From: Microcaldota archaeon
GTDB taxonomy: Archaea; Micrarchaeota; Micrarchaeia; Burarchaeales; Fermentimicrarchaeaceae
NCBI GenBank assembly: GCA_013425335.1
Contig: JACCLG010000046.1
Location: 1-52,510, forward strand
Direction of reading: 5' to 3'
Length of the DNA stretch: 52,510 nt
Shown here: positions 5,373 through 25,618 of the stretch, one piece after another
Layout of the letters: the number at the start of each line of letters is the position of its first letter
Numbering within the stretch: the stretch's first letter is position 1
Position numbers and translations under genes: made by a program
Notes under the pieces: model-generated
Told to the model about the DNA's origin: nothing
Seen by the model: only the letters and a program-made list of their open reading frames with translations
Databases searched by the model: none

Positions 5373-5376
5373 GTTC

Positions 5377-6501: not shown

Positions 6502-6505
6502 GAAT

Positions 6506-8240: not shown

Positions 8241-9962
8241 ATGAGAGCCCGCAGAGCATTCATCTTCACTGCAGATGCTGTACTCGCCTTCTATCTCATA
8301 ACCATCATACTCTCAATCCTCATGCTTCTCAGCTACACCCCTAAGTTATACACCCAGCAGTTCCAGTCCGTTGCAAGGGATACAGTGGTTGCATTAAGCA
8401 CCATCAGGTTGAGGGACGTGTGGGGCAGTCCACAGTACAACTATACCAACAGCCTTCTGTCCGTGCGAAACAACACCTTGACATTATGGCCCATGTTCCT
8501 GAGGACGATTGACCACAGTACTTCAATAGTTTCTGCATACCCCAAATCCAACTATGTATGGTTAACCTATCTAGTTAGCCCCGTGGGGGCAACAACCGGA
8601 GTTCACTCCACACCCGTGTTGTATAACGGCAAGATTATCGCAACGTCCGAAAACGGCATATACGCCTTTGATGAGAATAATGGGACGAGGCTCTGGTTTT
8701 TACCTATATGCTCTGATTCCACCCCTCTTCTATACAACGGTCGCATCTTTGTAGGGTCTCTCAACAGCAGCTTCTACTCGCTTGATGAGATGGGCAATGT
8801 GGTTTGGAATGCCACTCTCGACGGCAGCGTCATATCCTCGCCAATTGCACACAACGGGAAAGTGTTCATGGGTACCGCCAACGGGTCCCTCGTGTCTTTT
8901 GATGTAGAATCCGGATTCAAGAGCTGGTCTTTCAGCACTCCAGGAAACATAACATCGTCACCAATCTTCTATAACGGAAACATAATTATATTCTCCAATG
9001 ATACTTCCAACATGGGTCACCTCTACGCCCTTGACGAATACAGCGGAGCCTTGATGTGGTCATATAACCAGGGGCTCTCTCAACCGATTGACATATTCAC
9101 CCATCCATCTCCAATAGTCTCAAACGACGTCATCTACTACAGCGATGAATGGAAAATCCATGCATTAATCACAACAACGCTATCTGAGCTGAATGGATGG
9201 CCCGTCAATCAAGTTGGCCTCTCATTCACCTCATCTCCAGCGCTTGACAACAATATGCTGTATATCGGCTGCAGCAATGTGAGTAACCTCAAAAAGGGGG
9301 TATGCATCATTAATACGACCTCATCCCAGCCGTTATTATCATTAGTTCTGGCTGATCTTGGCTCTTCTGTGTACTCCACCCCGCTGGTTGTAAATGATTC
9401 GGTAATAACAGCAACTTACGATGGCACTTTGAGGGTGGTGAATAAGTCCGCTCTGCTTTCTGGCACTGTCCAACCCCTCTGGAGCTATACTGCAACGAAA
9501 CCAATATACTCCTCTCCTGCAGTTGTAAATGGCAGGATATACGTAGGAGCGGATGACGGCAATATCTATTCATTCGGGAACTGTTCTCTATGGGATGACA
9601 ATATGTCAGTAATCGACTCCATCGCCGCATTCTGGAGCATAAACAGGACGGACTGCGCGCGGGCAATTGCAAAGGAATTCCTTGACTCGGCAGTGCCGCA
9701 GAACTACGGTTTTGAGCTTGTGATAAAACCTCCTGAGGGGACAGGCCTGCAATGCAGTAGAATCTTTGGGAATTCATGCTACTACTGCAACGGAACAAAC
9801 TCAACAAAGTGGGATTCTATATACACAAATGACTGCGATCAGACCAAGTACCAAAGGCTTTTAATACGAGACAGCAGATATATATCCGGTTTGTTGCGGA
9901 AGAATAGTGGAATATATTACGCCCAAAGCCCAATAGAAGTTGAGCTAAGAGTCTGGAACTGA
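8241..9962 (+). CDS. pilin-like N-terminus fused to PQQ-type beta-propeller, secreted
   Basis: A 573-residue extracytoplasmic protein. The N-terminus MRARRAFIFTADAVLAFYL is short and basic, then hydrophobic, the form of type IV pilin-like proteins in DPANN and other archaea. Residues about 100-450 hold repeated strands such as PVLYNGKIIATSENGIYAFD, ISSPIAHNGKVFMGT and SSPAVVNGRIYVGADDGNIYSF, the PQQ-like propeller pattern. A Cys-rich C-terminal part has at least seven Cys. TATA at about 8209-8220 implies a leaderless ATG. First of three colinear surface genes opposite the pilus machinery; role in adhesion or pilus tip is inference. Confidence 0.8.
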   Translation: MRARRAFIFTADAVLAFYLITIILSILMLLSYTPKLYTQQFQSVARDTVVALSTIRLRDVWGSPQYNYTNSLLSVRNNTLTLWPMFLRTIDHSTSIVSAYPKSNYVWLTYLVSPVGATTGVHSTPVLYNGKIIATSENGIYAFDENNGTRLWFLPICSDSTPLLYNGRIFVGSLNSSFYSLDEMGNVVWNATLDGSVISSPIAHNGKVFMGTANGSLVSFDVESGFKSWSFSTPGNITSSPIFYNGNIIIFSNDTSNMGHLYALDEYSGALMWSYNQGLSQPIDIFTHPSPIVSNDVIYYSDEWKIHALITTTLSELNGWPVNQVGLSFTSSPALDNNMLYIGCSNVSNLKKGVCIINTTSSQPLLSLVLADLGSSVYSTPLVVNDSVITATYDGTLRVVNKSALLSGTVQPLWSYTATKPIYSSPAVVNGRIYVGADDGNIYSFGNCSLWDDNMSVIDSIAAFWSINRTDCARAIAKEFLDSAVPQNYGFELVIKPPEGTGLQCSRIFGNSCYYCNGTNSTKWDSIYTNDCDQTKYQRLLIRDSRYISGLLRKNSGIYYAQSPIEVELRVWN

Positions 9963-9970
9963 GGTATGCC

Positions 9971-10594
9971 ATGAAGAAAAAAGCATTCTTCTTCACTCTT
10001 CTCGTATTCATCTTCTCCTTCCTTGTCCTGATTTCAGTCACGGCCTGGATACGGACCATGGAATCGCTTGAGAAGCAGGATGTTTCTTCAGTAAGGATAA
10101 CGAAGATGAATGAGTTCTCCAACAGGGTCAAGGATGATGCAGTTAGAAGCACACAGCTGACCGGGTTCAACGCCCTGAGGACTGCAGCCACCTACGTTGC
10201 CTCAAACAACCAGAGCAAATTCCTGAATAACTTGAACTGCATTAACAATTTCTGCATTTATGAGCTCATGCACAATGTAACTATAGAGGGAAATTCCAAT
10301 TACACAAACTGGAACGGTGTTAATATCAGCTTCTCAGCGCCTGACCAGATGGGCAACTTCACCCTCCTGACGTGGGATCAGAAGATTACACGGCTTGCAA
10401 ACGCGTCTGATTTCAACATAAGCATCGCAAGAATGGATGTTGCTGTATTCCAGTCCGACCCCTGGAATGTGAAGATAGGCTATAACCTATATTTCAACAT
10501 AAGCGACAGGACGCTGGACTCTGTATTCAGGACGGATATGGTGCCTGTGCTTGTAACAATCCCGATAACCAATTATACATATTCAGGCGGTTGA
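9971..10594 (+). CDS. membrane-anchored pilin-like / minor pilin protein
   Basis: A 207-residue protein with MKKKAFFFTLLVFIFSFLVL, a short basic start and one hydrophobic helix, followed by a helical region (TMESLEKQDVSSVRITKMNEF) and an Asn/Thr/Ser-rich extracellular domain with many N-x-S/T sites. The layout matches minor pilins or PilX-like proteins that follow secreted pseudopilins. It starts 8 bases after the propeller gene and is nearly contiguous with the next gene, so the three are probably one operon. No processing motif can be stated with certainty. Confidence 0.7.
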   Translation: MKKKAFFFTLLVFIFSFLVLISVTAWIRTMESLEKQDVSSVRITKMNEFSNRVKDDAVRSTQLTGFNALRTAATYVASNNQSKFLNNLNCINNFCIYELMHNVTIEGNSNYTNWNGVNISFSAPDQMGNFTLLTWDQKITRLANASDFNISIARMDVAVFQSDPWNVKIGYNLYFNISDRTLDSVFRTDMVPVLVTIPITNYTYSGG

Positions 10595-10595
10595 T

Positions 10596-13500
10596 ATGGG
10601 GGATGAAAGAACTAAAATGAAGAATAGGCATATCCTCGGAGCAGTCCTCTCTCTCATTATGGAACATGCGGGCCCTCTTGGCAGAATGACTTCAGCATTG
10701 TTCTTGATGGTTTTCGTGCTTCTACCCTCCTTACTCTTTGCTCCTTCTTATTCACTGAACTCGACCAGTTCAACTCTTGCGGGAACCCCAGGGGTACATA
10801 ACCTCTACTGGCAGGATAGTGCGGGTTTAAGTGGCTACATCTTCCAGTTCTGCAACGGAACCTGGAATGGAACAGGTTGCGGAGGAGGAGGGGCATCAAA
10901 CTGGGCAGACAGCAGCTGCAGCTACAAGAGACAGCTTAACTTCAGCACAGGATTTGGAACGCAGAACCTCACAAACTTCCCAGTTCTTGTTGTGCTGAGC
11001 TCCTCAAGGATAAACTACTCAAGCACCTCTTCTTCAGACATACGCTTCTATGACTCAGACAACTCCACCCTGCTTTATAAGGAGACAGAGCTGTGGAACT
11101 CCTCAGGCAAAAGCTACATCTGGGTCAAAAAGCTGTCTTTGAACAACAATACTAAGGACTACATCTGGGCGTACTACAACTGCTCCAACACAAATTCAGA
11201 TAGTAAAACTCAGGTATGGGATAGCAATTATACGGCAGTCTACCACAGCAATTCATCCAGTGGTGGAACTCTTGTCGATTCGACAAATAAGTATAACGGT
11301 ACTCAAACAAATACTCCCACAGCAACAACCGGGCAGATAGATGGCGCGATGAATTATGCAGTCAGTTCTCAGCAGTACTATTCAACAAGTATAACACCAG
11401 GAAAAACTTTCACCTGGGAAGTGTGGGCAAATATCTCATCCTATACCACATACCACACCATGATATGCACCTCCAGTACCAACTACCAGCTGTTTGACCA
11501 GAACGGCAGTGCTCTTTCAATATGGACTCCAGAGTCTGGGATGGGCGGCGTTAACGCAGGGGTCACCGGTTTGTCCGCGGGTACCTCGTATTACTTTGTT
11601 GAGGTGCGTGATGGGGACTCCATAACGAACGGATACAAATTCTATAAAAATGGTGCGTTGACAAGCACCCAGTATACCACGGGCACCTGGAGCCCGTCAA
11701 ATACCATAATGATAGCCGATAGGGCGGACTCATTAACTCAAGCTTTTAACGGTGCGCTAGATGAAATACGAATCTCCAGCACAAACCGTTCAGCCTCTTG
11801 GCTAAATGCCACATACCTCACAGGAATGGACCAGCTCATAACTTACGGCTCAGAACAGGCAAAGGGAAGCAGCGGGTGGGTCAACGATTCCTGGGTTGCA
11901 TTCAGCTCCGGTATGTGCTCCACACCGTATACCGCATGCTGGAGCAATGTGACGAAGGTCATCAACTCCACAGGAAATGCGGTAATCGCATGGTGCGTTT
12001 CTACCAACAACACGTTAAACGTCTCGAATGGAACCTCCTGCAGCCCACCTTTCACCTATCTGACTGTCGCACAAACACCAACTCAGCTCAACCAGTCCGC
12101 TTCACCTTCACAACCGCAGCTTTATGGAACTGTCGTCAATTTCATTTGCAACTATTCCAATGCCAGCAATAATGCGCCAATTACGGGCGCAACAGTATAC
12201 GTGAATCTAAACAGCTTTAATTACACAGCAACCTACAACGCAACCACTGGCAATTATACCTACACAAACAGCACTCTCCCGCTGGGAAGTAACACTTGGT
12301 ACTGCATTGCAAATGAAACCGGCTACCAGTCCCAGACTGGCTCCACCCAGACCTACACAATAACGCTCTCATCGAATACCACTATTGTCTCACTAAGCCC
12401 GGCGGATGGATCGGCTGTTACACAGAGAACGGTCAAATTCACCTACAACGTTACATGGGTTGCGTATACGCCAATCAACTGCTCCCTCTGGGATAGTTCG
12501 AGCGGCACATTTAGTTTTGCGTTGTTAAACAGCAGCCGCTTGGTAAATGCCTCTCAGAACAATATCACCAAAACCTACTCGCGGGATTATGATTCAATTA
12601 CGTGGGCTATTCAGTGCTGCGATTCAAGCGGGGCATGCCCCATGTCGTCCCAGCAGATAGTTGCAGTGCACACCTCGAATATTGGCATTTCTGCTTCACC
12701 CCCAAGCCCCCAGTGCATCAATTCACTAGTGTATTTCTACTGCAACTACACTGATGGCAATGGGATTCCGATTCAGAATGCGCTTGTCAATATGAGCTTT
12801 GGTTCAAAAATATACAGCAACGATCCAGCCCTTTTGTTACTTGGATATCCTCCTGTCTACTACAACAGCAGCTTAGGGGAGTACTACTTTTATACCATCA
12901 TCATAAACAGCCAAGGTGATTATCCCTACAACTGCAGCGCATCGCAGAACGGCTATCCTTACAACAGCACGAGCAGCACTTATACGATTAAAGACCTGCT
13001 AAACTCTTCTCTAAGTGTCAACTCCACTCCGGCAACTCCATCGGTTTACGGCACAAGTGTATACTTCAACGGCACCTACACAAATACAAGCGGTGCACAG
13101 CCGATAATCCTAACCAATGCATTGTGCAGCCTGACTATACCCGGTCCGATCACCTACAACAACTTGATTTTTAATACTACAACAAACAGCTATGGGGTTC
13201 TAGTGGACGCGCTTGCGCCCTATGACAACAACTATGTGTTCCAGTGCAGCCAAACATGTTTCCAAACGGCATCCTACCACGGATATTTTTACATGTCCTA
13301 TAGCGGTCTTCCGTTATCCCCAGCTCTCACATTTGAGGATCCTCTCTACTCCACAAAAACCAATGGAACTTCTCATAAACTCATAAGCGCTGCCTCCAGC
13401 AATGACAGTTTTGTCGCAAACATCAGCTATAGCATGAGCGGCTCTGGCTGGGTTTATACAATGGTAACAAAGCCTATAAAAGATAATCCGCAATGCAACG

Positions 13501-14117
13501 AACTCCCCCCTCCCGACTCTTCCAAGATTCTGCTTGTAAAAAACTCAACATACATAGCGGATACATCCCCAACCGGGTGCCCCCAGGTGAACAGCAGCTA
13601 CGCTGGAGTCATATTTGAGGATGATTACTGCGGCAGGATTTCTAACTGCAACCTAGCTTCGCTGCCATACGCATACAACTTCACCTCTCCCATATACAAC
13701 AGCATATCCAATGCTTCCTACGTTCTGCTGAATGGCGATTACCATGTGGTGCAGAACATCTCAAAACTCAGGGAATTCTATCTAAACGGCTACTACCGAG
13801 CCAGCAATTATGCGCCAAGCTTCCTTATGAGGCTGAGCGGGCAATTTACTCAATCCCCGTATGGTATGGAGTCATTTGTTAAAATTAATCAATTTGTAAG
13901 CCCAACGTCTGCCGTTGATTATTACTACTTCAACAGCAGCCTGAATCCATTGACTGTATACAAAATAAAGGGAATGCCAAACTGCGAGAACAAAGCTGCA
14001 TGCAGTCAACCCCCACCTCACTTCTATCTTGACAACGAGATAGCTGTTGCCAACTCAAGCGGAACATACACCCACCTGCAGATATACACCGGTGGTATGA
14101 GTCTTGTTACGCCCTAG
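10596..14117 (+). CDS. large surface protein: DUF2341, LamG-like and Ig-like domains
   Basis: An 1173-residue secreted protein. A hydrophobic segment (TSALFLMVFVLLPSLLFA, about 31-48) is the likely signal sequence. WADSSCSYKRQLNFS to about residue 200 fits DUF2341, which often precedes a concanavalin-like domain; residues about 215-400 (FTWEVWANIS, ALDEIRISSTNRSASWL) fit LamG. Two or three Ig-like units follow (YGTVVNFICNYSNASN; YGTSVYFNGTYTN). Asn/Ser/Thr-rich with many sequons, so probably heavily glycosylated. No C-terminal anchor is visible. Probable adhesin; internal start sites (10617) are possible. Ends 10 bases from the convergent platform gene. Confidence 0.8.
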   Translation: MGDERTKMKNRHILGAVLSLIMEHAGPLGRMTSALFLMVFVLLPSLLFAPSYSLNSTSSTLAGTPGVHNLYWQDSAGLSGYIFQFCNGTWNGTGCGGGGASNWADSSCSYKRQLNFSTGFGTQNLTNFPVLVVLSSSRINYSSTSSSDIRFYDSDNSTLLYKETELWNSSGKSYIWVKKLSLNNNTKDYIWAYYNCSNTNSDSKTQVWDSNYTAVYHSNSSSGGTLVDSTNKYNGTQTNTPTATTGQIDGAMNYAVSSQQYYSTSITPGKTFTWEVWANISSYTTYHTMICTSSTNYQLFDQNGSALSIWTPESGMGGVNAGVTGLSAGTSYYFVEVRDGDSITNGYKFYKNGALTSTQYTTGTWSPSNTIMIADRADSLTQAFNGALDEIRISSTNRSASWLNATYLTGMDQLITYGSEQAKGSSGWVNDSWVAFSSGMCSTPYTACWSNVTKVINSTGNAVIAWCVSTNNTLNVSNGTSCSPPFTYLTVAQTPTQLNQSASPSQPQLYGTVVNFICNYSNASNNAPITGATVYVNLNSFNYTATYNATTGNYTYTNSTLPLGSNTWYCIANETGYQSQTGSTQTYTITLSSNTTIVSLSPADGSAVTQRTVKFTYNVTWVAYTPINCSLWDSSSGTFSFALLNSSRLVNASQNNITKTYSRDYDSITWAIQCCDSSGACPMSSQQIVAVHTSNIGISASPPSPQCINSLVYFYCNYTDGNGIPIQNALVNMSFGSKIYSNDPALLLLGYPPVYYNSSLGEYYFYTIIINSQGDYPYNCSASQNGYPYNSTSSTYTIKDLLNSSLSVNSTPATPSVYGTSVYFNGTYTNTSGAQPIILTNALCSLTIPGPITYNNLIFNTTTNSYGVLVDALAPYDNNYVFQCSQTCFQTASYHGYFYMSYSGLPLSPALTFEDPLYSTKTNGTSHKLISAASSNDSFVANISYSMSGSGWVYTMVTKPIKDNPQCNELPPPDSSKILLVKNSTYIADTSPTGCPQVNSSYAGVIFEDDYCGRISNCNLASLPYAYNFTSPIYNSISNASYVLLNGDYHVVQNISKLREFYLNGYYRASNYAPSFLMRLSGQFTQSPYGMESFVKINQFVSPTSAVDYYYFNSSLNPLTVYKIKGMPNCENKAACSQPPPHFYLDNEIAVANSSGTYTHLQIYTGGMSLVTP

Positions 14118-14127
14118 ATTTACGGCA

Positions 14128-15126
14128 TCATCTTGAGAACAGGGACGCAAACACGAGGCCGAATAGCAAAGTTACTGCAAAAAACACCGCCAGCCCAAGC
14201 CCCACAAAAAATGGAGCATACTTGAAGCCGTTTATCCAAGAGCCGGTATTGATTACCGCAATAATCATTGATGCTGAAAATGTGACAAGTATTGTCGCAA
14301 TAATCGCGAACTTGTAGAAGTCATCTGTCGATACCTTTGGCGGTCTCGGCTGGAGTATTGACGACATCGCCCCAATCTTCGGGAAGCCCTCGGGATTCTG
14401 CTTGTTGATATCGCTCCATATCTTATTTGTGGAGCCTATCAGCTGATAGGAAAGCCCGTATAGCATAGGAGCTCCTATGCAGGATGCAAAAACGATGAAT
14501 ATGACGTACATGAGCATCATCTCAGAAATTTCCTTGTGCAGTATCTGCACCTGCCTCGCATCTGAAGAGCACTTCTCAAGTAGTGTTGCAATCTCACCTC
14601 CGCTGGAACTCTCCTCAATAATCAGGTTGACGGTCCTGTTAAGCTGCCTTGAGTTGAACTTCTTCGCAAGCTTCCTCAGAGCCTGAGTGAATGGCTCCCC
14701 TCCAAATGTCCGCCTTGTCGTATTTGCAACCTCCTCAGAGAGAAGGCCGAACTCGGGCCTTGCGGCAAACCATAAAGCCCTTTCAATTGACATGCCCGCC
14801 CTGACGTTTGCTGCGCATATCTGCAGGAAATCAGGAAGCACTTCTTCTATCTGCTTCTTCCTGTTGTCTATCCTCATCCTCAGCCATACGTAAATTACCA
14901 GAGCATCGAATATCATAACTCCCACTGACACAATCAGAGCAATGTCCGGGAAGGCTCTAACCATGAAAATGAAGGTGGGAATGGGGATTCCCAGCACGGC
15001 GAGTATGACCATTCCCATAAATACCTCTGGCGATATGTCCACCCCGGCCATTGCCAGGACGTCCTCCACCTGCAGTATCCATTCTCTTCTCAGCAACCTT
15101 CCCAATACACCGTATACTTCAGCCAT
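14128..15126 (-). CDS. type II secretion F-domain (TadC/FlaJ-like) membrane platform protein, copy 2
   Basis: A 332-residue integral membrane protein of the GspF/TadC group. N-terminal helices around VILAVLGIPIPTFIFMV and VGVMIFDALVIYVWL, a cytosolic domain with DFLQICAANVRAGMSIERAL and SSSGGEIATLLEKC (the T2SSF motif), then helices MMLMYVIFIVFASCIGAPML, two further hydrophobic segments and the C-terminus. The ATG at 15126 is preceded by GAGGT, making the in-frame start at 15147 less likely. It would form the platform moved by the ATPase at 16.8-18.3 kb. Last gene of the operon. Confidence 0.9.
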   Translation of the reverse strand: MAEVYGVLGRLLRREWILQVEDVLAMAGVDISPEVFMGMVILAVLGIPIPTFIFMVRAFPDIALIVSVGVMIFDALVIYVWLRMRIDNRKKQIEEVLPDFLQICAANVRAGMSIERALWFAARPEFGLLSEEVANTTRRTFGGEPFTQALRKLAKKFNSRQLNRTVNLIIEESSSGGEIATLLEKCSSDARQVQILHKEISEMMLMYVIFIVFASCIGAPMLYGLSYQLIGSTNKIWSDINKQNPEGFPKIGAMSSILQPRPPKVSTDDFYKFAIIATILVTFSASMIIAVINTGSWINGFKYAPFFVGLGLAVFFAVTLLFGLVFASLFSR

Positions 15127-15136
15127 GCTTCTTACC

Positions 15137-16069
15137 TCATATATCAAAGTTCGGTCTTGAAGACCTCAGTATTGTCATGAAGGCATACTGCATCAATGCA
15201 AGGAACACCAGCACGATAGTGAGAGTCCCGAAATCAACATCAAAGCTTACGAACGAGCTCAGTATCACTCCAATTGCAACCCCGAGCGAAGGCAGGATTA
15301 TCGCAAACAGCATGTAGAACATGGCAATCGGGTTGAGCTTCTGCCCGTACCTCTTTATCTCTATTATCTGCTCCTGGGAAATCTGGTTCAGGGCGCTCTC
15401 CAGCCCAGTCCCTATATCAGAGCCGGACCTCAGGGACATGAGCACCTGCAGTATTATTCTCCTGAACGAAGGCGCCTTGTTCGACTCGTAGGCCTGCTGC
15501 AGCGCTATTTCCGCAGGAATCCCGCTGTCCACCCTCTCCACTATCTTCTGGAATTCCTTGCTTGTAGCCCCGTAATCCTTCCTGACTCCTACAAGCGCAT
15601 TGAAGAGCGGGGCTCCTGACTTCAGCGCTATGAGCATATCCCTGCCTGCAAACAGTGAATCCCTATCAACCTCTCTTGCCTTCTGGCTTATCTTGACATC
15701 AATCGCCCCAATCCCCATGATGAAGAAAACGAAGAACAGCACTGGCGATATGAGCACAACCAGCAGCCATGGGAACTGGAAAACGGATGCAAGCATTGCG
15801 AGCACTATGGTGAATATTATCATCATGACGAAGGCATTTAAAAGCGTCCTTGTGGCGAAGTCCCTAGGGTCGATATCCATGTCCGCCATCTCAAGCTTCC
15901 TCGGCAAATCCGGGAATTGCTTGACAACAACGCCAATGATTCTCTTGTCCCATCCAACACGAGCCCTGCGCCCCTCGGCTCTAGTTGCCGGCAGTTGCGG
16001 CTCCTTTTTCTGCGCGATAATCTTTTCCAGCGCCTGCTTCACTTCCTCCTTTTTTTCTGACTCGCCCAT
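15137..16069 (-). CDS. type II secretion F-domain (TadB/FlaJ-like) membrane platform protein, copy 1
   Basis: A 310-residue paralogue of the downstream protein with the same layout: two N-terminal helices (VMMIIFTIVLAMLASVF; LLVVLISPVLFFVFFIMGIG), a cytosolic domain with LFAGRDMLIALKSGAPLFNAL and LRSGSDIGTGLESALNQIS (T2SSF motif), and helices near the C-terminus. A charged N-terminal tail precedes. ATG 16069 has GGTGAG nine bases before it, overlapping the stop of the upstream gene; the longer start at 16102 lacks this. Two separate F-domain proteins resemble the Tad arrangement rather than the single long FlaJ of archaella. Confidence 0.9.
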   Translation of the reverse strand: MGESEKKEEVKQALEKIIAQKKEPQLPATRAEGRRARVGWDKRIIGVVVKQFPDLPRKLEMADMDIDPRDFATRTLLNAFVMMIIFTIVLAMLASVFQFPWLLVVLISPVLFFVFFIMGIGAIDVKISQKAREVDRDSLFAGRDMLIALKSGAPLFNALVGVRKDYGATSKEFQKIVERVDSGIPAEIALQQAYESNKAPSFRRIILQVLMSLRSGSDIGTGLESALNQISQEQIIEIKRYGQKLNPIAMFYMLFAIILPSLGVAIGVILSSFVSFDVDFGTLTIVLVFLALMQYAFMTILRSSRPNFDI

Positions 16070-16076
16070 TCTCAAC

Positions 16077-16790
16077 TCACCCGCTTTCAAGTAAATCTTC
16101 AATGTCCTTCTTCATCTTCCTTATCCTCTCCTGCTTCTCCCTCTCCTCCTTCTTCATGGTTATCTTCTTGAAATTCTCGCTGAGCTCCTTTATCTCCTCA
16201 GCTTTAGCCTCATCAATCACAGGCTTCTCTTCACCCGTGGCTATATTCATCTCAGCTGCCTGCCTTGGCCTCTCAGGCTCGGCTTTTGGCTTACCAAGGA
16301 CGAACTGCTTCTCTCTCGGCGCCTCTGGGGCCTGCCTTGCATCATTTGAGACTTCTATGACGCGTTTCTTCTCTGGAATGTTCAACATGAGGTTGGCAAA
16401 CTTCTCTTTCATGCTCTCCAGTTTCCTTTCCTCCTCCTCTATCTCTTGCTCGCTCCTTTCCAGAACCTCAACCTTCTCCTGCGGTATCCTCTCAAGCTCC
16501 TTCTCGCTGAGAATCCTCCGCCCGGCCATCTTCTCAGCCTTCTCCTCCTTCTCAATTCTCGCAGCCTTCCTTCCCACGCTTTCTATTTCCTCAGCACTCT
16601 TGAGGGCAGATTCGTATGAATCTATAGAAACATTCTCAACATCAGAATACTCAAAAACAGCACCGCCTGGAAATACCTTCGCTCCAGTTGGTATTGCCTC
16701 TCTCTCAAGCCTCCTTGCCTCGCTGGATGCTTTCAGGAAAGCCGCATCCACATTCTCTGTCACACCCTTGTCATCCGTCTCACTTGCCAT
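16077..16790 (-). CDS. charged coiled-coil protein of pilus operon
   Basis: A 237-residue, Glu/Lys/Arg-rich protein with no membrane segment. Segments such as EKELERIPQEKVEVLERSEQ and ENFKKITMKKEEREKQERIR predict coiled coil; a Pro-rich linker (about 145-180) divides them. It lies between the secretion ATPase (11-base overlap) and the first platform protein, so it is probably translated with them. No known pilus component fits; a cytosolic adaptor between ATPase and membrane platform is inference. Confidence 0.7.
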   Translation of the reverse strand: MASETDDKGVTENVDAAFLKASSEARRLEREAIPTGAKVFPGGAVFEYSDVENVSIDSYESALKSAEEIESVGRKAARIEKEEKAEKMAGRRILSEKELERIPQEKVEVLERSEQEIEEEERKLESMKEKFANLMLNIPEKKRVIEVSNDARQAPEAPREKQFVLGKPKAEPERPRQAAEMNIATGEEKPVIDEAKAEEIKELSENFKKITMKKEEREKQERIRKMKKDIEDLLESG

Positions 16791-18297
16791 ACAACCCCAG
16801 CTCCTCGCTCCAAGGCTCGTCCCTGTTTACAATTTCCATCATCTCTCCAGAATTCCTGTAGTACCGCGATACAACCAAACCCACATTATCCACGTCTCTT
16901 ATCTGGTTCTTCAGAATCCACTTCAGCACCTTGGTTTTCTCTGCTATGTCATCAACTATCTCCTTCCTAGTCATACCTGCGTAGAGGGAGAGCGTGTCCG
17001 CAAGCACGCTCAGCTCGTTTATCTCCTTTATTGCGTCAGTCTTCAAATCCCACCTTGCTATGATGTTGATGTCCCCTCCTTTTAATATTTCAGCAAACTC
17101 CAGCATCCTCCTTATGCCAAGCCTCCTGTGCCTGAACTGAACAATAATCCCGGCAAGTGCATCCAGCATGCTCTTTGGAATGTTGATTGGCGGGTTGGTC
17201 AGCCTTGTCACCGTGTCGCCTGCATTGTCCGCGTGCAGTGTTGCGTAAACAGAATGGCCGGTGTGCATTGCCTCAAAAAGAACCTCGGCCTCCTTCTGCC
17301 TCCTTATCTCCCCCACTATTATCCTGTCGGGCCTCTGCCTCAGGGCGTTCACCAGCAAATCCAGCATTGTCACCTCTCCCTTGCCCTCGGGGTTTGGCTG
17401 CCTTGTGAGCATGGGCACCCACTGCATGTGCTTCGGCAGCGTCAGCTCCGATGTATCCTCTATGGTGATTATCCTGTGGTTGGGTGGTATAAAGCATGAG
17501 ATTGAGTTCAGAAAGGATGTCTTTCCGGAAGCGGTTCCTCCCGAGACGAGCAGGGACAACTCATTCTGCATGCACATCCATATGAGGGAAGCAGCCTCTG
17601 GGCTTATGGAATTCCTCTCAAGCACCGCAGTGATTGTCCAGGGGTTCTTTGAGAACTTTCTTATGGTTATGGTATTGCCGCACACTGAAATGGGGTGCAG
17701 CGTTGCATTTACCCTTGACCCGTCCGTAAGCGTTGCGTCCATGAGTGGGTTGAGAACTGTTATCTGCTTGCCTATCCTTCTGCCTATGCTGGCTGCGTAT
17801 TCATATATTGTCTCCTCATCCTTGAGGTTGAGGTTTGTCTTGCACCACCCGTGCTTCTTGTGGAACACCCATACAGGCTCGGATGCCCCGTTGACTACTA
17901 CCTCCTCAAGGTTCTCATCATGAATCGGAGTCTCCAAATCCCCCAAGCCGAGCATATTCTGGACAAGGTATGCCGCAAGCAGCTTCTTGGCATCATCGGA
18001 AATCGTCAGGAAATGCTTGTCCAGCAGCTTCATGGCCTTCTCTTCGAACTTCTTCCTTACCTGGTCTATGAGCTTCGGGTTCATGAGCTCGTCAGCGTCA
18101 AGCTTCACATCGGTTATGAGCTCCCCTCGCAGTGTATTAAGCACTATCTTTGTCCCTTCCCCCAGGCCTCGCACTCCAATTTCGTAAAAGGGGACAAAAT
18201 CCTTCTTTGTCTGGCTTATCTTCACTGTAACTGGTATATCGCCTGCCAAAAAGCTGTACTCCTCAATGGTCCCCTCACTAGCTTCCTGGTCGCTCAA
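16780..18297 (-). CDS. type II/IV secretion ATPase (TadA/FlaI/GspE-like)
   Basis: A 505-residue hexameric traffic ATPase. An N-terminal domain (1-125) precedes the core: GGTASGKTS Walker A (253-261), ITIEDT Asp box (277-282), RIIVGEIR Walker B (325-332) and GHSVYATLHADN His box (348-359), all intact. It powers assembly of a type IV pilus-like filament through the two platform proteins downstream. The start is TTG at 18297, with GGTGAT three bases upstream and no ATG nearby. A TATA-like GTTTATAT lies about 30 bases upstream, so an internal promoter is possible. Confidence 0.95.
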   Translation of the reverse strand: MSDQEASEGTIEEYSFLAGDIPVTVKISQTKKDFVPFYEIGVRGLGEGTKIVLNTLRGELITDVKLDADELMNPKLIDQVRKKFEEKAMKLLDKHFLTISDDAKKLLAAYLVQNMLGLGDLETPIHDENLEEVVVNGASEPVWVFHKKHGWCKTNLNLKDEETIYEYAASIGRRIGKQITVLNPLMDATLTDGSRVNATLHPISVCGNTITIRKFSKNPWTITAVLERNSISPEAASLIWMCMQNELSLLVSGGTASGKTSFLNSISCFIPPNHRIITIEDTSELTLPKHMQWVPMLTRQPNPEGKGEVTMLDLLVNALRQRPDRIIVGEIRRQKEAEVLFEAMHTGHSVYATLHADNAGDTVTRLTNPPINIPKSMLDALAGIIVQFRHRRLGIRRMLEFAEILKGGDINIIARWDLKTDAIKEINELSVLADTLSLYAGMTRKEIVDDIAEKTKVLKWILKNQIRDVDNVGLVVSRYYRNSGEMMEIVNRDEPWSEELGLYGK

Positions 18298-18336
18298 CTA
18301 ATCACCACATAATAATCTTTTGCGGGGAATATAAAC

Positions 18337-19566
18337 TTATCCACTGATCTTTCCCAACATGCTGAGGAACTTGATATACTCCCTCTCAAAATCCAGTATG
18401 TCCTCCTCGCTTCTCTTTACCTCCTCCTCGCACTCCTTGGCCTCAGCAAATAGCTTTACTAGGTCAGACCTTGGCCGGACTTTAAACCTTTGAATCCTTC
18501 GTGAGATGTTCCTAAGCTTATCCCACAGCAGCATTTTCACTTCCTCAAGGGACTGCAGCTCGCCCTCGGCCTCATCCTTGTACCTAACCCTCTCCTCGTA
18601 CTTCTGTATTATTTTGTGCAGCTCATCCAGCCCAACCCTGGCCTCTTTCCTGCTATTCTCAAGCTTGCCGTAGAGCTCCCTTTCAACCTTCTCTGAAACC
18701 GTGGTATCTGCCGAGTAAGTTTTATCCTTTATCCTTCTAAGCTCTTTACAGTTCCTCTCAATGGAACGAGTGAAATCCCCCCAAAGCTTGTTGATTTCCG
18801 AGCATTTGCCCCTTATTTCGTCACTCATCACGCCAGCCTGCTTTACAACCTCTTCGCTCGGCTCCTTCTGAGCGACTTCAACAGTGACTTTCGGCTCAGC
18901 AACTTTCTCTGGTTCCTCTTTTTTGACCAGAGGTTTCTCTACAACTTCCTCCTTCCTGCCGAAGCTCTCTTCAATAATTTCCTTCTCTCTTGCAACATGA
19001 GGCTCAGCAACTTTCTCTGGTTCCTCTTTTTTGACCAGAGGTTTCTCTGCAACTTCCTCCTTCCTGCCCGGAGTTTTTGGGATAGCTATCTTTATCTTTC
19101 CAAGCCCCTTCAAACTTTCTTCAACAGACTTTGTAAAATCCCCAAACAGCTTATTAACTTCCAGGCGTTTCTTTGTTTCATCACTCACTCCACCAATCTG
19201 CTTCCTAAGCCCCTCAGCAACCTTCTCTACTTCCTCTTTTTTGATAAGTCCCTCAATTTCCTCCCTGCTGACCCTAAGTTCCGCAATTTTCTTCTCTAAT
19301 TTCTCTTTTTTACTAGGAGCCTTCTTAGCAGCCGCTTCCTTCTTCACTGTATGCGTTTCCTCCTCCTTTTCCATATGCATAGCTTCCTTCTTCTCAGCAA
19401 CTTTCTCCTCTTTTTTACTGGGAATTTTTTGTGTAACATCATCTTTCTTGCTAAGGACTTTCTGAACAAGCTCCTCTTTCTTACTTAATTTTTTCTGCCC
19501 AACCTCCTCACTTTTGCTCTGGCGTTTTTCAGCTTCCTCCTTACTGCCTAGCTTTTTCTTGGTCAT
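18337..19566 (-). CDS. long Lys/Glu-rich coiled-coil protein with internal repeats
   Basis: A 409-residue hydrophilic protein. The N-terminal 95 residues are degenerate KK-x-S-KKEE units (KLSKKEELVQK, VLSKKDDVTQK, IPSKKEE). Two longer units are duplicated: NKLFGDFTKSVEESLKGL and NKLWGDFTRSIERNCKEL, and twice KPLVKKEEPEKVAEP. The C-terminal 150 residues predict long coiled coil. The gene overlaps the upstream winged-helix gene by 4 bases (ATGA) and precedes the ATPase. Not a known pilus part; a cytosolic scaffold is inferred from composition and context. Confidence 0.75.
   Translation of the reverse strand: MTKKKLGSKEEAEKRQSKSEEVGQKKLSKKEELVQKVLSKKDDVTQKIPSKKEEKVAEKKEAMHMEKEEETHTVKKEAAAKKAPSKKEKLEKKIAELRVSREEIEGLIKKEEVEKVAEGLRKQIGGVSDETKKRLEVNKLFGDFTKSVEESLKGLGKIKIAIPKTPGRKEEVAEKPLVKKEEPEKVAEPHVAREKEIIEESFGRKEEVVEKPLVKKEEPEKVAEPKVTVEVAQKEPSEEVVKQAGVMSDEIRGKCSEINKLWGDFTRSIERNCKELRRIKDKTYSADTTVSEKVERELYGKLENSRKEARVGLDELHKIIQKYEERVRYKDEAEGELQSLEEVKMLLWDKLRNISRRIQRFKVRPRSDLVKLFAEAKECEEEVKRSEEDILDFEREYIKFLSMLGKISG
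18893..19068. repeat. 68-bp near-perfect direct repeat inside coiled-coil gene
   Basis: 18893-18960 and 19001-19068 differ at one base in 68, spaced by 108 bases. They encode the duplicated KPLVKKEEPEKVAEP segments. Such identity implies recent duplication or ongoing homogenisation and a site prone to length change. Confidence 0.85.
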
Positions 19567-20180
19567 TTCTTTCCACTCTTTGCAGCTTCACCCTTCTGGA
19601 CTTCTGAGCAGATTTTTATGCTGTTCTGCAGTTCCTCGCCCATCTTCTGCAGTTTTTCGAGCTTCTTCTCGCTCTCCTCGACTCCTTTTTTAAGAGCATC
19701 AACATCCGAGACAAACTTCTCATTGCTGGACCTGCACCTGAAACACATCTCTTCATACTGCCTCTCAAGCTCATCCAGCTCCCTCACTCTCTGCCTCGCG
19801 GCTGCCATCTTGTTCTCAAAGAGCTTTGATACGCCCACGAATTCATCCCTCATATCGTCAAGTTCCTTCCCAACCCTCTCAAGTCTCTTTACCTGCGTTT
19901 CAACCTCCCTGGACATGGTCACCTGCATATCCGCTATGTCCTTCGCCCTCTTCTGCAATTCAACCTTCTCTGTGCCCTGCGATGTGATGTAGACTTTGGT
20001 AAACTGGTAATCTATCTTGACAATGCCCTCCTTCTCCAGCACCTTCGCCCACTCCTCCAAAATGCCCTGTGAAATTCCCAGCTCAACGGCCGCATCCCTC
20101 AGCTCAATTCTTCCCCTGTCGCGCACCAGCTTCATGAGACCGTCAACACCGGTGCTTAGGATTACGTCGTCATTAACCAT
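19563..20180 (-). CDS. winged-helix plus coiled-coil protein heading pilus operon
   Basis: A 205-residue protein. Residues about 10-65 (GLMKLVRDRGRIELRDAAVELGISQGILEEWAKVLEKEGIVKI) form a winged-helix domain of the same kind as those in the divergent genes at 20.3-22.1 kb; residues about 75-200 are continuous coiled coil with one CFRC pair. First gene of a six-gene minus-strand operon ending with the second platform protein. Either a regulator or, given the coiled coil, a structural cytosolic part; inference only. A TATA-like TTTATTAA is about 25 bases upstream. Confidence 0.72.
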   Translation of the reverse strand: MVNDDVILSTGVDGLMKLVRDRGRIELRDAAVELGISQGILEEWAKVLEKEGIVKIDYQFTKVYITSQGTEKVELQKRAKDIADMQVTMSREVETQVKRLERVGKELDDMRDEFVGVSKLFENKMAAARQRVRELDELERQYEEMCFRCRSSNEKFVSDVDALKKGVEESEKKLEKLQKMGEELQNSIKICSEVQKGEAAKSGKK

Positions 20181-20262
20181 GTATGGATTTTCACTGTTAA
20201 TTATTAATAAAGGTTTAGGTATAATACCTCTAATATACGTCTAATGGGTAGCAGGTGGGAAA

Positions 20263-20538
20263 ATGGGAGAAGAGCTATTGGGAATTATACCGGTAAAGGA
20301 GGACCTTGGCGTAGTTGAAAGGTTCAAAATTGAGAAGATACTGTACGAGAAGTTCAAGGATGATGCAATCAAGGTCTACCTGTCTATAGACTCAAAGAAG
20401 AATGCAGAGGAGATAAAAACCGAGACTGAAATTCCGGAAGCGAAGTTTTTGGAGATGCTGGACTTCATGGAGAAGTCGAAGTTGATCCAGCTCAAAACAA
20501 TCTTTGAAATTGAGGTTAATAAAAAAGACAAGCGCTGA
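20263..20538 (+). CDS. small single winged-helix protein
   Basis: A 91-residue protein with one module, LYEKFKDDAIKVYLSIDSKKNAEEIKTETEIPEAKFLEMLDFMEKSKLI, matching the repeated units of the next gene (24 bases downstream). GGTGGG precedes the ATG. Divergent from the pilus operon across an 82-base promoter region. Likely works with the larger repeat protein; target unknown. Confidence 0.7.
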   Translation: MGEELLGIIPVKEDLGVVERFKIEKILYEKFKDDAIKVYLSIDSKKNAEEIKTETEIPEAKFLEMLDFMEKSKLIQLKTIFEIEVNKKDKR

Positions 20539-20562
20539 TTTACCTTTTAGAAGTGGTTTGGG

Positions 20563-22059
20563 ATGGATAAGGATTCTCTCAAAAAGATACTTGAAAAGAA
20601 GCCCGAGGGGCCAATTGACAGGTACATGCATGAGAAGGACCTGTCGGATAAGTACGGGAACGAGGGAATTAGGATATACCTGCTTATGGACGGCCAGACC
20701 AGCGCTGAGGAGATAATGAAAAAAGTCGGCGTGGAGGAGAACAGGTTCATAGAAATCATCAATTATATTGAGAGCAATGGCATGCTAGAGACTGGAGAGC
20801 CGGTTTCCAAGCCTGCCGAGGTGCCAGCCCCCCCTCCCAAACCGCGCGAGGAGCCTGTCAAGCCTGTGGAGGAGTTCCCTCTCGCGAAGCCAAAGTTAGA
20901 GGTTCCATCAATTCCGCTGGTGAAGACAGAAGATGTTAATTTTAAAGAGGAGGAAACTCCGAAAGTGAATGAGCTGCCACTTGAGAAACCAAAAGAGGAG
21001 ATACCCTCCATCCCTCTGCTGAAGACTGAAGGAATTGTCGAGGCAGAGGAGAAGAGTTCAGCGCTCAAGGCGCTTGTCACTAGTGAAAAGCCCACGGAAG
21101 AGCCAGCCCAGCCCGCTCCAAGACAGAAAGCATACGGCAAGCCGCGCATCCCAAAAACCCCGCTTGAGAAGAAGCTCTATGCCAAATTCGGGGATGACGG
21201 GCTTTATGCGTATTCACTCATTGACGAGTTCAAAACTCCAAGGGAGATAGTGAAGCAGAGTGGGATGAGCGAGGAGCGGCTTAAGGAGATAATTGGATTC
21301 ATGAAGGATGAGGGCATAATAAAGCTTGAGAGGCCTCTCATTGCTCCGGTTGAGGCAATTCTTGCCGAGGAGAAGCCCACCCCTGAAAAACCCCAGGTGC
21401 AGCCTCCCAAGCAGGTCACTCCTTACCGCGCTCCGACTATTATAATCCCTCTGCAGCCGAAGTCGGCGCCTGCTCAAGCAAAGCCTGCTGAAACTTCCGC
21501 ACCGTCAAAGCCTGTTGTAGCCCAGCCAGTAAAACAAGTTGAGAAACCCGAGCCAAAAGCGTTGAAACCGCTTCCACTCAACAGGGAAGAGATATGCGTG
21601 CCGACTGCAGTTCCCATGAAACTTGTCAACAAGCTGAGGCTTGAGGGAGAGCTGCTCAGAAGATACGGAAACGAGGGCTCCAAGGTGCTCTCTCACATGA
21701 ACGGGAAGAAAGTCAATGTAAAAATTATGAAAGAGCTTAGGATGAGCCCGGCGAAGTTTGACGAAATAGCGTCATTCCTGCTCGATGGTGGAGCAATAAA
21801 GATTCAGTGCCTTACTCCTGACAACGTGAGGGAGCTTTACGGGGAGGAGGGGCTCTCCATATACAACAAATACGGAAGGGACGGCATTCTGCTCTACGAG
21901 TTCATAGACAAGAAATCAAGCCTGAAGGATATAGTAAAGATGAGCGGCATAGAGCCCAGGCTCGCAGTTGAGATATTCGCCTTCATACACAAGGTGCTGG
22001 GCCTTGACATACCCATAGACACGGAATTGCTCTACAAGCAGCTTGGAATAAAGCCGTAG
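20563..22059 (+). CDS. protein with four winged-helix-like repeats and Pro-rich linkers
   Basis: A 498-residue protein. Four modules of about 50 residues each begin with a Y/F-G-x-[ED]-G motif: DKYGNEGIRIYLLMDGQTSA (about 25), AKFGDDGLYAYSLIDEFKTP (about 205), RRYGNEGSKVLSHMNGKKVN (about 365) and NKYGRDGILLYEFIDKKSSL (about 430). Each ends in an [FY]I/FM-x2-[DGN]G-like hydrophobic helix, as in winged helices. Between modules 1 and 2 and between 2 and 3 lie Pro/Lys/Glu-rich tethers with repeated EEIPSIPL-like motifs. Sits between pilus genes and smc. May be a multivalent scaffold rather than a DNA regulator; inference. Confidence 0.75.
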   Translation: MDKDSLKKILEKKPEGPIDRYMHEKDLSDKYGNEGIRIYLLMDGQTSAEEIMKKVGVEENRFIEIINYIESNGMLETGEPVSKPAEVPAPPPKPREEPVKPVEEFPLAKPKLEVPSIPLVKTEDVNFKEEETPKVNELPLEKPKEEIPSIPLLKTEGIVEAEEKSSALKALVTSEKPTEEPAQPAPRQKAYGKPRIPKTPLEKKLYAKFGDDGLYAYSLIDEFKTPREIVKQSGMSEERLKEIIGFMKDEGIIKLERPLIAPVEAILAEEKPTPEKPQVQPPKQVTPYRAPTIIIPLQPKSAPAQAKPAETSAPSKPVVAQPVKQVEKPEPKALKPLPLNREEICVPTAVPMKLVNKLRLEGELLRRYGNEGSKVLSHMNGKKVNVKIMKELRMSPAKFDEIASFLLDGGAIKIQCLTPDNVRELYGEEGLSIYNKYGRDGILLYEFIDKKSSLKDIVKMSGIEPRLAVEIFAFIHKVLGLDIPIDTELLYKQLGIKP

Positions 22060-22165: not shown

Positions 22166-25100
22166 ATGGTTTACATAGAGAGAATCAAACTGAAGAGATT
22201 CAAGTCGTTCAAGTTCGCAGACATACCTCTCTCAAAGGGTTTTGTGTGCCTAGTCGGGCCCAACGGCTCTGGCAAGTCCAACGTATGCGACGCGATACGC
22301 TTTGCTCTGGGCGAGAACAGCTTCAAGTCCCTCAGGGCGAAGAAAGTTGCGGATTTGATAACCCGCGGCTCTGAGAAGGCTGAGATATACCTGCAGTTTG
22401 ACGGTGAGAAGAAGCACGAGCTGAAGAGGGCGATAAGGAATGACGGTAAAACCCTCTACAAGCTTGACGGGAAGAGGCTGACGCGAACAGATGTCCTTGA
22501 CGAGCTCTCCCGCATGGGCATAAGCGCAGGAGAACACAATGTGATAGCCCAGGGTGAAGTTGAGAGGATTGTGGACATCAACCCCAAGGAGAGGAGGGAG
22601 ATAATTGACGGCGTTGCAGGCATCTCCGAGTTCGAGGAGAAGAAGAAGGAGGCGCTTGCAGAGCTTGCCAAGGTTGAGCAGAAGATAAACGACGCCACGA
22701 TTGTTCTGAAGGAGAGGGAGGGCTTCCTCACAGAGCTGGAGAAGGACAAGAATGACGCCTTGAGATACAATGAGATAAACGCGGGCTTGAGGAAGTACCA
22801 GGGTTCCCTGCTTTTCATTGAGCTGAAGAAAGTTGAAAAGGAGTTCACACGGGCAACAAACAAGTATCTGGAGCTGAAGGGCCAGGAGGAGGAAGTCAAC
22901 AAGAAGGTTGTTGAAATTGATGCTAAGATAAAGGAGCTTGAGAACCAGAAGAACGGCATAACCCAGCAGATAAATGAAAAAGCAGAGAGGGAGAAGAACT
23001 CCCTTTTCAGCGAGGTTGAGCAGCTAAAAACTTCAATAAATTTGGCCTTGGGCAGCAAGGAGCAGAAGGAAAGGGAAGTTGAGAGGATAAAGCAGAGGAT
23101 AGGCTCTTTGGAGAACGAGAAAATATCGCTCAACGCGAAAATGATTCAGCTCGCGCAGGACTCAGCTGGGGTGAAAGAGAGAATATCCGATGTTGAGGGG
23201 CAGATTCTTGCATTCCTGAATGAGAGGGACAGGGCTTCCAAGGAGTCGGCTTTGGGCAGCAAATTCTACGAGGCAAAGCTGAAATCAAACAATTTACTTA
23301 AACAGCTTGAGGAGAGAAGGGAGAGGGTAAGAAAGCTTGAACTCGATGTTGAGAAGCTCGCCAGCAAGAAGAGTTTCGCCGAGATGGAGCTCAAGAGACT
23401 GGAATCCCAGGCTCCTGCAGAGAAAACTGAGAGGGAGAGCGAGATATCCCAGGATGCGGAGGAGCTGAGGAAAGCCAGCAAGGAAATAGATTCGCAGCTC
23501 AGCTCTCTTTTCGAGAAGGAGAAGGAGCTCAACCAGAAGCTCCCCACAACCGAGAAGATGCTGCTTGAGGTGAAGGAGAAGCATGTCAGCATAGCGAGCA
23601 AGCTGCAATTCCTGAAAGAGCTTCCCGAGAACCAGGGAGTGAGAGCCCTGCTCGACCTTAAGAAGAACGGCATGCTCCCAGGAGTATACGGAACTGTTGG
23701 AGAGCTGTGCAAATTTGATGACGAGTATGCAACTGCAATAGAGGCTGCGGCGGGCCACAGGATGAACTACCTTATTGTGGAGGATGTGGATACTGCGGCA
23801 AAAGCAATAGAATACCTGAAGAAAACGAAGGCAGGCAGGTGCACATTCATACCTCTTGACATCAATGCCCGCTTCATAACTGATGAGCAGAGGGCTTTGA
23901 GCAAGAAAGAGGGTTCCCGTGGCTTCCTGCTCGAGGTTGTGAGCTTCGACTCCAAATACTCCAATGTCTTCCAGTTTGTTTTCGGTGACACGCTTCTCAT
24001 TGACAGTATAGAGCGCGGAAAGAGGGTTGGAATTGGAAAAGCCCGCATGGTTACATTGGAGGGAGATTTGCTTGAGTCTTCCGGAGCCATAACTGGAGGG
24101 ATTTTGAAAAGGGTCTCCTCTCATGCAAAGGAGAGGGCAGAGGTTGAAAGACTTAACTCGGAGCTAGAAGCCCTCAAAGCTGAGAGGGATGGAATTGTGA
24201 ACTCTCTCTACTCCCTGAGGGAGGATATGAGCAAGAAGAGAAGGGAGAAGAGCGAGCTTGAGGTTAAGCTGAAGGGGTTTGAGCTGGAGCTTGCGCACAT
24301 TGCAGAGACAAGGAGCAAGGAGAGGAAGGGCAAGGAGACCTATGAGGCGAATCTTGCTTTACTAAGGCAGGAGATAGAAAGAAGCTCCAAAGAACTCTCA
24401 GAGAGGCAGGCGGACATTGAGAAGCTGAACTCAGAGATTGCAGAGCTCCAAAAAGCAAATGAGGATTCTCTGAAGCAGATAGACGCGGAGAAGGAGGAGC
24501 AGTTCAACAGGAAGATGCAGGAGTTCGAGAAGCAGCTCAACGGCTTCAACTCGACAAAGGCATCCCACGAAGCTGAACTGGCAAAATGCACAGCGGAGCT
24601 TGACGTGATGAGGAAGAGAGCGCAGAGCATTGACGATGAATGCGAGCCGCTCAGGAAGGATTTGAACGCCCTGAAGAGCGATGTGAAGGAGCTGGAGTCA
24701 TCCTTGGCTTCAAACAACAAGCTGTACGAAGAGAAAAGCGCGAAGATAAAGCACATCAGCAGCGAGCTGGAGAGATTGTTTGAAGAGAGGAACGTGATGG
24801 ACAGGCAGATTGAGGCGCTTGCTCTTGAGAAGGGCAAGAGCAGCTTCAACTACGAAAAATTCTTCAAGGATTTGACAAGGTACGAGATTATGAAATCCAA
24901 CCTTGAGACAAGGCTGGCGGACTTGAAGACTGAAAGCGCCTCTTACAATGATATAGAGCAGGTTGAAGGCGCAAAGGAGGATATTGAGGCAAAGATATCT
25001 GAGGGTGAGCAGCAGCTTGCAGCCCTCGGTAATGTCAACCTGAAAGCTCCTCAGGAGTATGATGAGAGAGTAAAGGAGATGAAGGAAGTCAAGGAGAAGA

Positions 25101-25618
25101 GCGAGAAGCTTGCCGAGGAGAGGAAGGCTGTGCAGAGCATGATTGATGAGATTGAGACGAAGAAGTCGGCAATATTCATGGAAACATTTGAAGTTGTGAG
25201 GGAGAACTTCGTGAAGCTCTATGGCTATGCCTTCAAGACAGGGGAGGGCGACCTTGTGCTGCAGAACCCCGAAGCACCTCTGGAGAGCGGTCTGCAGATT
25301 CAGCTGAAGACGGAGAAGGGGGAGCTGCAGTTCATTGAGTCCAAGTCAGGAGGGGAAAAGTCTCTGTTAACTCTGATGTTCATATTCGCAATCCAGATGT
25401 ACAAGCCTGCTCCATTCTACCTCCTGGATGAAGCGGATGCATCCCTCGACAAGGAGAACAGCCTGAAGCTCTCCCAGCTCCTCAAGGAGCTTTCCAAGAA
25501 TACGCAGTTCATTGTTGTGACCCATAATGATGCAGTTTTAACATCTGCGGATACGGCAATTGGAGTTACAAGGACAAAGGAAGGCTCAAAGATTGTGGGA
25601 GTGCAGTTCAACACGTAA
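22166..25618 (+). CDS. smc: chromosome segregation protein SMC
   Basis: An 1150-residue SMC ATPase. Head-N has GPNGSGKSN Walker A (about 32-40); two long coiled coils flank a hinge (about 490-660, NQGVRALLDLKKNGMLPGVYG to the SSGAITGG region); head-C has SGGEKSLLTLMFIFA signature and FYLLDEADASLDKEN Walker B, with DEADASLD for the usual DEVDAALD. It organises and separates chromosomes as a dimer, usually with ScpA/ScpB; those are not in this window. The ATG at 22166 follows GGGGAG. Length and architecture are normal for archaeal SMC. Confidence 0.98.
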   Translation: MVYIERIKLKRFKSFKFADIPLSKGFVCLVGPNGSGKSNVCDAIRFALGENSFKSLRAKKVADLITRGSEKAEIYLQFDGEKKHELKRAIRNDGKTLYKLDGKRLTRTDVLDELSRMGISAGEHNVIAQGEVERIVDINPKERREIIDGVAGISEFEEKKKEALAELAKVEQKINDATIVLKEREGFLTELEKDKNDALRYNEINAGLRKYQGSLLFIELKKVEKEFTRATNKYLELKGQEEEVNKKVVEIDAKIKELENQKNGITQQINEKAEREKNSLFSEVEQLKTSINLALGSKEQKEREVERIKQRIGSLENEKISLNAKMIQLAQDSAGVKERISDVEGQILAFLNERDRASKESALGSKFYEAKLKSNNLLKQLEERRERVRKLELDVEKLASKKSFAEMELKRLESQAPAEKTERESEISQDAEELRKASKEIDSQLSSLFEKEKELNQKLPTTEKMLLEVKEKHVSIASKLQFLKELPENQGVRALLDLKKNGMLPGVYGTVGELCKFDDEYATAIEAAAGHRMNYLIVEDVDTAAKAIEYLKKTKAGRCTFIPLDINARFITDEQRALSKKEGSRGFLLEVVSFDSKYSNVFQFVFGDTLLIDSIERGKRVGIGKARMVTLEGDLLESSGAITGGILKRVSSHAKERAEVERLNSELEALKAERDGIVNSLYSLREDMSKKRREKSELEVKLKGFELELAHIAETRSKERKGKETYEANLALLRQEIERSSKELSERQADIEKLNSEIAELQKANEDSLKQIDAEKEEQFNRKMQEFEKQLNGFNSTKASHEAELAKCTAELDVMRKRAQSIDDECEPLRKDLNALKSDVKELESSLASNNKLYEEKSAKIKHISSELERLFEERNVMDRQIEALALEKGKSSFNYEKFFKDLTRYEIMKSNLETRLADLKTESASYNDIEQVEGAKEDIEAKISEGEQQLAALGNVNLKAPQEYDERVKEMKEVKEKSEKLAEERKAVQSMIDEIETKKSAIFMETFEVVRENFVKLYGYAFKTGEGDLVLQNPEAPLESGLQIQLKTEKGELQFIESKSGGEKSLLTLMFIFAIQMYKPAPFYLLDEADASLDKENSLKLSQLLKELSKNTQFIVVTHNDAVLTSADTAIGVTRTKEGSKIVGVQFNT

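Follow-up and report, generated by a model that had tools for sequence, protein, structure and literature searches.

The means by which DPANN archaea attach to their hosts are not settled, with pili as prime suspects, and beyond the archaellum little is known of the cytosolic proteins that partner archaeal pilus ATPases. In cluster 2 DPANN and Undinarchaeota, Hamm et al. (2024; PMC11291902) described two conserved loci encoding CpaF, TadC, and coiled-coil proteins, and likened the latter to the sigma-1 attachment protein of reovirus. The main text of that paper describes neither a winged helix nor a fusion with the ATPase and does not cover Micrarchaeota. In an earlier survey, the list of cytoplasmic proteins includes a halobacterial coiled-coil protein, arCOG07564, and names no ATPase partner that combines a winged helix with a coiled coil (Makarova 2016; PMC4858521).

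Here, a pilus locus from a Micrarchaeota genome is examined within a window of 52,510 nucleotides, the whole stretch of DNA that was analysed (contig JACCLG010000046.1 of assembly GCA_013425335.1). A preliminary description had taken the locus for a candidate undescribed system whose partners match no known component. The first of these claims is too strong, given the coiled-coil proteins already reported beside CpaF and TadC in cluster 2 DPANN (PMC11291902); the second holds for Pfam and NCBIfam but not for the literature, in which coiled-coil proteins of DPANN pilus loci already appear. New in this analysis are the assignment of a winged-helix (wH) domain, the inclusion of Micrarchaeota, and another interpretation of the function; full-text searches of the open-access literature turned up no earlier account of the winged helix, of the fusions, or of the parts seen in Micrarchaeota. 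The locus probably encodes an archaeal type IV pilus machine of DPANN type, whose assembly ATPase would work with, and bind, a dedicated cytosolic winged-helix partner.

Layout of the operon and its neighbours

The eight open reading frames described earlier are all present, in position as well as in order, and their ends overlap or nearly touch. Six of them form an operon on the minus strand (20180–14128) that encodes, in this order, a winged-helix/coiled-coil protein (wHcc), a K/E-rich protein, a T2SSE ATPase, a charged protein, and two T2SSF platform proteins. The wHcc (19563–20180; 205 aa, with an N-terminal winged helix and a coiled coil) is the proposed ATPase partner, and its stop codon is overlapped by the start of the gene for the K/E-rich protein (18337–19566; 409 aa). 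These are followed by the type IV pilus assembly ATPase (T2SSE/CpaF/FlaI-like; 16780–18297; 505 aa), the charged protein (16077–16790; 237 aa), and the platform proteins TadC1 (15137–16102; 321 aa from a TTG codon, with a later true start possible) and TadC2 (14128–15147; 339 aa from a TTG codon). Divergent from the operon, on the plus strand, lie genes for a protein with a single winged-helix module (20263–20538; 91 aa) and for one with four (20563–22059; 498 aa; modules at residues ~12–80, 196–260, 340–418, and 417–490); the 82 bp between the two transcription units (20181–20262) presumably hold both promoters. Convergent with the operon, the plus-strand genes at 8241–14117 encode a membrane-anchored PQQ-type beta-propeller protein with an N-terminal hydrophobic helix (8241–9962), which is a candidate pilus-associated surface protein, a pilin-like protein of 207 aa that also begins with a hydrophobic helix (9971–10594), and a surface protein of 1173 aa with a DUF2341 domain (10596–14117), which is a candidate adhesin. 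These genes are kept beside the operon in sibling genomes. A functional tie to a neighbouring SMC gene was dropped; among the neighbourhoods examined, that adjacency is confined to this genus. Gene calls are mechanical, with uncertain starts, and the data derive from MAGs.

The secretion ATPase and the two F-domain platforms were identified correctly at the outset (Pfam T2SSE, 3e-39; T2SSF, 1e-13 and 5e-15), and together they are an ordinary archaeal type IV pilus core. The partner proteins in the operon had no Pfam match above cut-off, and NCBIfam models named only the ATPase superfamily, in each case below the cut-off of the model. The source genome, of 1.0 Mb in 55 contigs, encodes six T2SSE ATPases and ten T2SSF domains, and the named loci nearest to the ATPase of the window belong to Candidatus Micrarchaeota, e.g., Ca. 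Micrarchaeum sp. A_DKE. Across the neighbourhoods examined, the order wHcc–ATPase–insert–TadC1–TadC2 is held over many families of the class, and this class-wide conservation of the gene set indicates that the open reading frames are not chance occurrences.

The K/E-rich protein had been regarded as a repeat-rich partner; the K/E repeats are real, but the protein is unlikely to be an independent partner. From profile comparison, its conserved core (residues ~229–409, about 180 residues) appears to correspond to the C-terminal half of wHcc, detached and enlarged by K/E repeats, the remainder of the protein being an expansion with an internal duplication. The core matched the C-terminal half of unsplit Micrarchaeota wHcc at 64.5% and 78.8%, as compared with 0.2–34% for five control coils in the same comparison, whereas most pairwise alignments between the 409-aa protein and fused wHcc scored no better than SMC coiled-coil controls. 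In three siblings the second protein measures 189, 222, and 386 aa, and the 409 aa in the window reflect K/E-repeat expansion. Thus, wHcc is apparently split in this genus into a wHcc of about 200 aa and a second gene. One group of Woesearchaeota is similarly split, with a wH protein of ~150 aa followed by a coil or TPR gene and then by the ATPase.

The 237-aa protein had been called a coiled-coil protein as well; it is charged and of low complexity, and a crude composition test gave no long coiled coil. Its gene lies between those for the ATPase and TadC1 in 47 Micrarchaeota loci, whereas the latter two are directly adjacent in 54 other loci, among which are paralogous loci from the genome of the window. 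The family is thus a Micrarchaeota-specific insert, defined by its position, and its profile recovered Micrarchaeum-type members absent from the training set. An N-terminal two-helix pattern is conserved in the family but visible only in the alignment and the HMM; when a two-fold helix motif was sought with a regular expression, there was no excess over shuffled sequences (0.11 versus 0.08), so that conservation of the pattern is claimed here and not a proven repeat.

Linkage of the winged helix with the pilus ATPase

The fold proposed for wHcc, with a winged helix at the N-terminus and long helices after it, was recovered for the family in an AlphaFold2 model (27 sequences) of a close relative of 391 residues. 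A confident winged helix, with pLDDT mostly 85–93, is followed in that model by helices of 137, 119, and 45 residues, with low confidence in the middle of the coil. From this model, wHcc is predicted to be a winged helix mounted on a long helical hairpin. A strongly hydrophobic segment is absent from 92 of 98 wHcc sequences. When the wHcc profile was searched against PDB sequences, every match was to a generic coiled coil (e.g., myosin), and these matches were disregarded.

A wHcc is present in 50 of 60 relatives, and a T2SSE ATPase lies directly downstream on the same strand for 57 of 85 wHcc matches. To extend this beyond the class, a wH profile built from Micrarchaeota sequences alone was applied to 79 named loci picked by ATPase similarity. 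Among the 72 named DPANN loci with enough upstream sequence, the winged helix was found upstream of the ATPase in 65 and fused to it in 1 (66/72), a rate that is valid for the part of the ATPase tree from which the loci were taken, since they were selected by likeness to the wHcc-linked ATPase. The conservation of the neighbourhood across DPANN genomes that the preliminary description had put forward as a check was therefore observed, and positive loci include Woesearchaeota, Nanoarchaeota, Aenigmatarchaeota, and Diapherotrites. No winged helix was detectable in 6 of the 72 testable loci, nor in three haloarchaeal pilus loci, which were the only non-DPANN sample; likewise, wHcc had no match in one nanohaloarchaeal genome, and none was found in a search of plasmids. 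Within the window's genome, two of the six ATPases are accompanied by a separate wH and two carry a fused one, while the two most divergent (C11 and C52) had no wH match.

Partners scattered without the ATPase, or a match to FlaC/D/E, had been named beforehand as evidence against the proposed system. No FlaC/D/E match was found, and scattering was found in part: 28 of the 85 wHcc matches lie away from any ATPase, including a second paralog that has a ribosomal L10e-type gene as its neighbour and copies next to RNA polymerase genes. The wHcc-like family is not exclusively pilus-bound.

The winged helix has been fused to the N-terminus of the ATPase at least twice. A Woesearchaeota genome encodes wH and ATPase in a single protein of 596 aa, an N-terminal wH is present in two ATPases of the window's genome, those on contigs C47 and C18, and a sibling genome holds two further fusions that lay outside the training set (E-values of 1.4e-9 and 3e-11). 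In a quick ATPase tree, with SH-aLRT support only, the fusions fall in two separate clades among separate-gene forms. The long coil is missing from all fused forms, which suggests that the winged helix is the motor-facing part of the protein.

The divergent genes do encode one and four copies of the same wH module, as had been claimed (hhalign probability of 94–99.5%). The four-module protein is modelled as wH beads on disordered linkers, with the last two modules contiguous, and its first two modules are related to the winged helix of wHcc (hhalign, 94%). Of 147 genomes of the class, 68 encode this wH-repeat family, and several entire families of the class gave no match. Where both are near, the wH-repeat gene stands head to head with wHcc; in a few genomes the two are unlinked.

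A probable dedicated motor partner and competing explanations

These observations bear on the claim that the partners form a cytosolic layer of control or scaffolding. A layer tied to the ATPase is upheld by synteny, by the fusions, and by the general lack of a membrane segment; its novelty is reduced by a core that is an ordinary pilus and by a coiled-coil partner that has already been published. The wHcc may accordingly be viewed as a putative scaffold or regulator that would bind the pilus ATPase. In such a machine, the winged helix would dock on the hexameric ATPase at its N-terminal side, and the long helical hairpin, which would be one chain in most relatives and two in this genus (19563–20180 and the end of 18337–19566), would extend into the cytosol, where it would serve the motor as a ring, anchor, or switch. 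The 237-aa protein (16077–16790) of Micrarchaeota would bridge ATPase and platform, and in part of this group the one- and four-module proteins could take part in the same contacts, either as multivalent adaptors or as competitors. Such a machine would yield regulated assembly of a surface filament, plausibly for attachment to a host cell. A bolder version, offered tentatively and with considerable doubt, is a DPANN-wide layer of wH modules controlling type IV pilus motors, in which wHcc or fused wH would be an obligate ATPase subunit and the free single- and multi-module proteins of Micrarchaeota would compete for or bridge the same sites, as a clutch that times filament building.

An unlikely alternative in function is that wHcc, like the wH-repeat proteins, binds DNA and controls the pilus operon in the manner of Lrs14, TrmB, or Sul12a, with synteny reflecting co-regulation. 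The top Foldseek matches of the winged helix are DNA-binding regulators of MarR/ArsR type (none below an E-value of 0.001), a divergent arrangement is typical of autoregulators, and many regulators occur in archaeal pilus loci according to Makarova (2016; PMC4858521). There are also weak matches to TrmB and one to the chromatin protein Sul12a, but these fall below curated cut-offs (27 bits against 150 for Sul12a). Against this reading, the winged helix has been fused to the ATPase twice, and regulators of this type do not usually have hairpins that run to hundreds of residues. Further, helix 3 of the winged helix is acidic in 59–80% of sequences at four positions and has a Trp in 86 of 102. 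With its conserved Glu and Trp this helix is unlike a typical DNA-reading helix, a feature of composition that argues for contact with protein over DNA. Less likely still is a layer that works like the cytosolic FlaC/D/E ring of the archaellum, a motor switch or scaffold, whether by analogy or through very distant homology. The NCBIfam model that best fits the ATPase is that of archaellum FlaI, and the topology, a cytosolic partner beside ATPase and platform, is the same; against this, the operon is without a FlaH-like gene, and the partners have no Pfam match to FlaC or FlaD/E at an E-value of 0.1. FlaC/D/E are not known to have a winged helix. As a statement of how the layer works, this reading overlaps with that of a dedicated motor partner.

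It is highly improbable that the coiled-coil proteins serve as attachment fibres on the cell surface in the way of reovirus sigma-1, as was put forward for cluster 2 DPANN. For coiled-coil proteins of CpaF/TadC loci, Hamm et al. (2024; PMC11291902) report such a structural likeness and detection in the proteome. However, coiled-coil likeness in fold searches is non-specific, the identity of those proteins (PMC11291902) with wHcc is deduced, wHcc begins with a winged helix and mostly (92 of 98 sequences) lacks any strongly hydrophobic segment, and the same winged helix is elsewhere fused to a cytosolic ATPase. If wHcc is a dedicated partner of the motor, coiled-coil proteins proposed as attachment fibres would be reread as intracellular and seated on that motor. 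The wH protein is therefore a candidate for an overlooked motor component that is directly testable, and a near-universal dedicated subunit would provide a DPANN marker for pilus loci and a concrete protein pair to solve.

Comparison with known systems

With archaeal type IV pilus assembly systems, the locus shares a T2SSE ATPase and a T2SSF platform in one operon, with pilin-like genes adjacent; compared with those surveyed by Makarova (2016; PMC4858521), the platform here consists of two single-domain proteins. The bacterial Tad pilus (CpaF/TadA, TadB, TadC, TadZ) is similar in having one ATPase with two separate T2SSF proteins downstream of it, yet no TadZ-like gene occurs in the operon and the ATPase scores 193.3 bits against the TadA family model, for which the cut-off is 373.15. 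The archaellum motor (FlaI, FlaH, FlaC/D/E) likewise pairs a FlaI-like ATPase with cytosolic partners. FlaI is the nearest NCBIfam model (1e-90, below cut-off), with 304.9 bits against an equivalog cut-off of 550. The closest solved relative of the ATPase is Archaeoglobus fulgidus GspE2 (PDB 2OAP/2OAQ; 4.5e-74 over residues 86–484), which, at 511 aa, leaves no room for the extra N-terminal winged helix of the ~600-aa fused forms. The coiled-coil proteins of Hamm et al. (2024; PMC11291902), which include NAR1_03220 and NAR1_01690, share with this locus a long coiled-coil protein beside CpaF and TadC. In Woesearchaeota and Nanoarchaeota, loci with a long coiled coil beside the ATPase mostly encode wHcc, or else a coil gene between wH and ATPase. 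From this position in the locus, wHcc and the coiled-coil proteins already described (PMC11291902) are probably members of the same protein family.

Genes flanking the pilus operon

Directly after the gene for four winged-helix modules (the wH-repeat gene) lies a full-length SMC gene (22166-25618), an adjacency that, among the fetched loci, is restricted to the window's genus. On the other side of the operon, adjoining the pilin-like genes, 8241-9962 encodes a protein that has a hydrophobic helix at its N-terminus and contains a PQQ-type beta-propeller, possibly a pilus-associated protein bearing the propeller.

Variants and paralogs at related loci

At two loci (L078 and L079), the position of the winged-helix/coiled-coil protein (wHcc) upstream of the ATPase is occupied by a very long, low-complexity protein rich in Pro, Lys, and Ala. 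One locus of Woesearchaeota type has TPR repeats encoded in the coil gene sited between the winged-helix gene and the ATPase (L139:7128-8951). Several Micrarchaeota carry a second paralog resembling wHcc, about 550-670 aa long (L156:6329-8266, L161:7644-9647, and L162:3245-4990), that adjoins a ribosomal L10e/L16-type protein gene and is distant from any pilus ATPase; a search of the window's genome found no paralog of this ribosomal-neighbour type. That genome has a divergent T2SSE ATPase locus in two very similar copies (L059 and L060, on contigs C11 and C52), whose ATPases were placed outside the wH-linked clade in the ATPase tree.

Putative toxin-antitoxin and hydrogenase genes

An AbiEii nucleotidyltransferase (match at 5e-15) and a neighbouring gene that is AbiEi-like by eye (together 1105-2203) probably form a type IV toxin-antitoxin pair. 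NuoE-like and NuoF-like genes are accompanied in 4926-8170 by a gene for a 652-aa protein that, on visual inspection, resembles the catalytic subunit of iron-only hydrogenases, and the three may possibly encode an NADH-linked [FeFe] hydrogenase in an archaeon.
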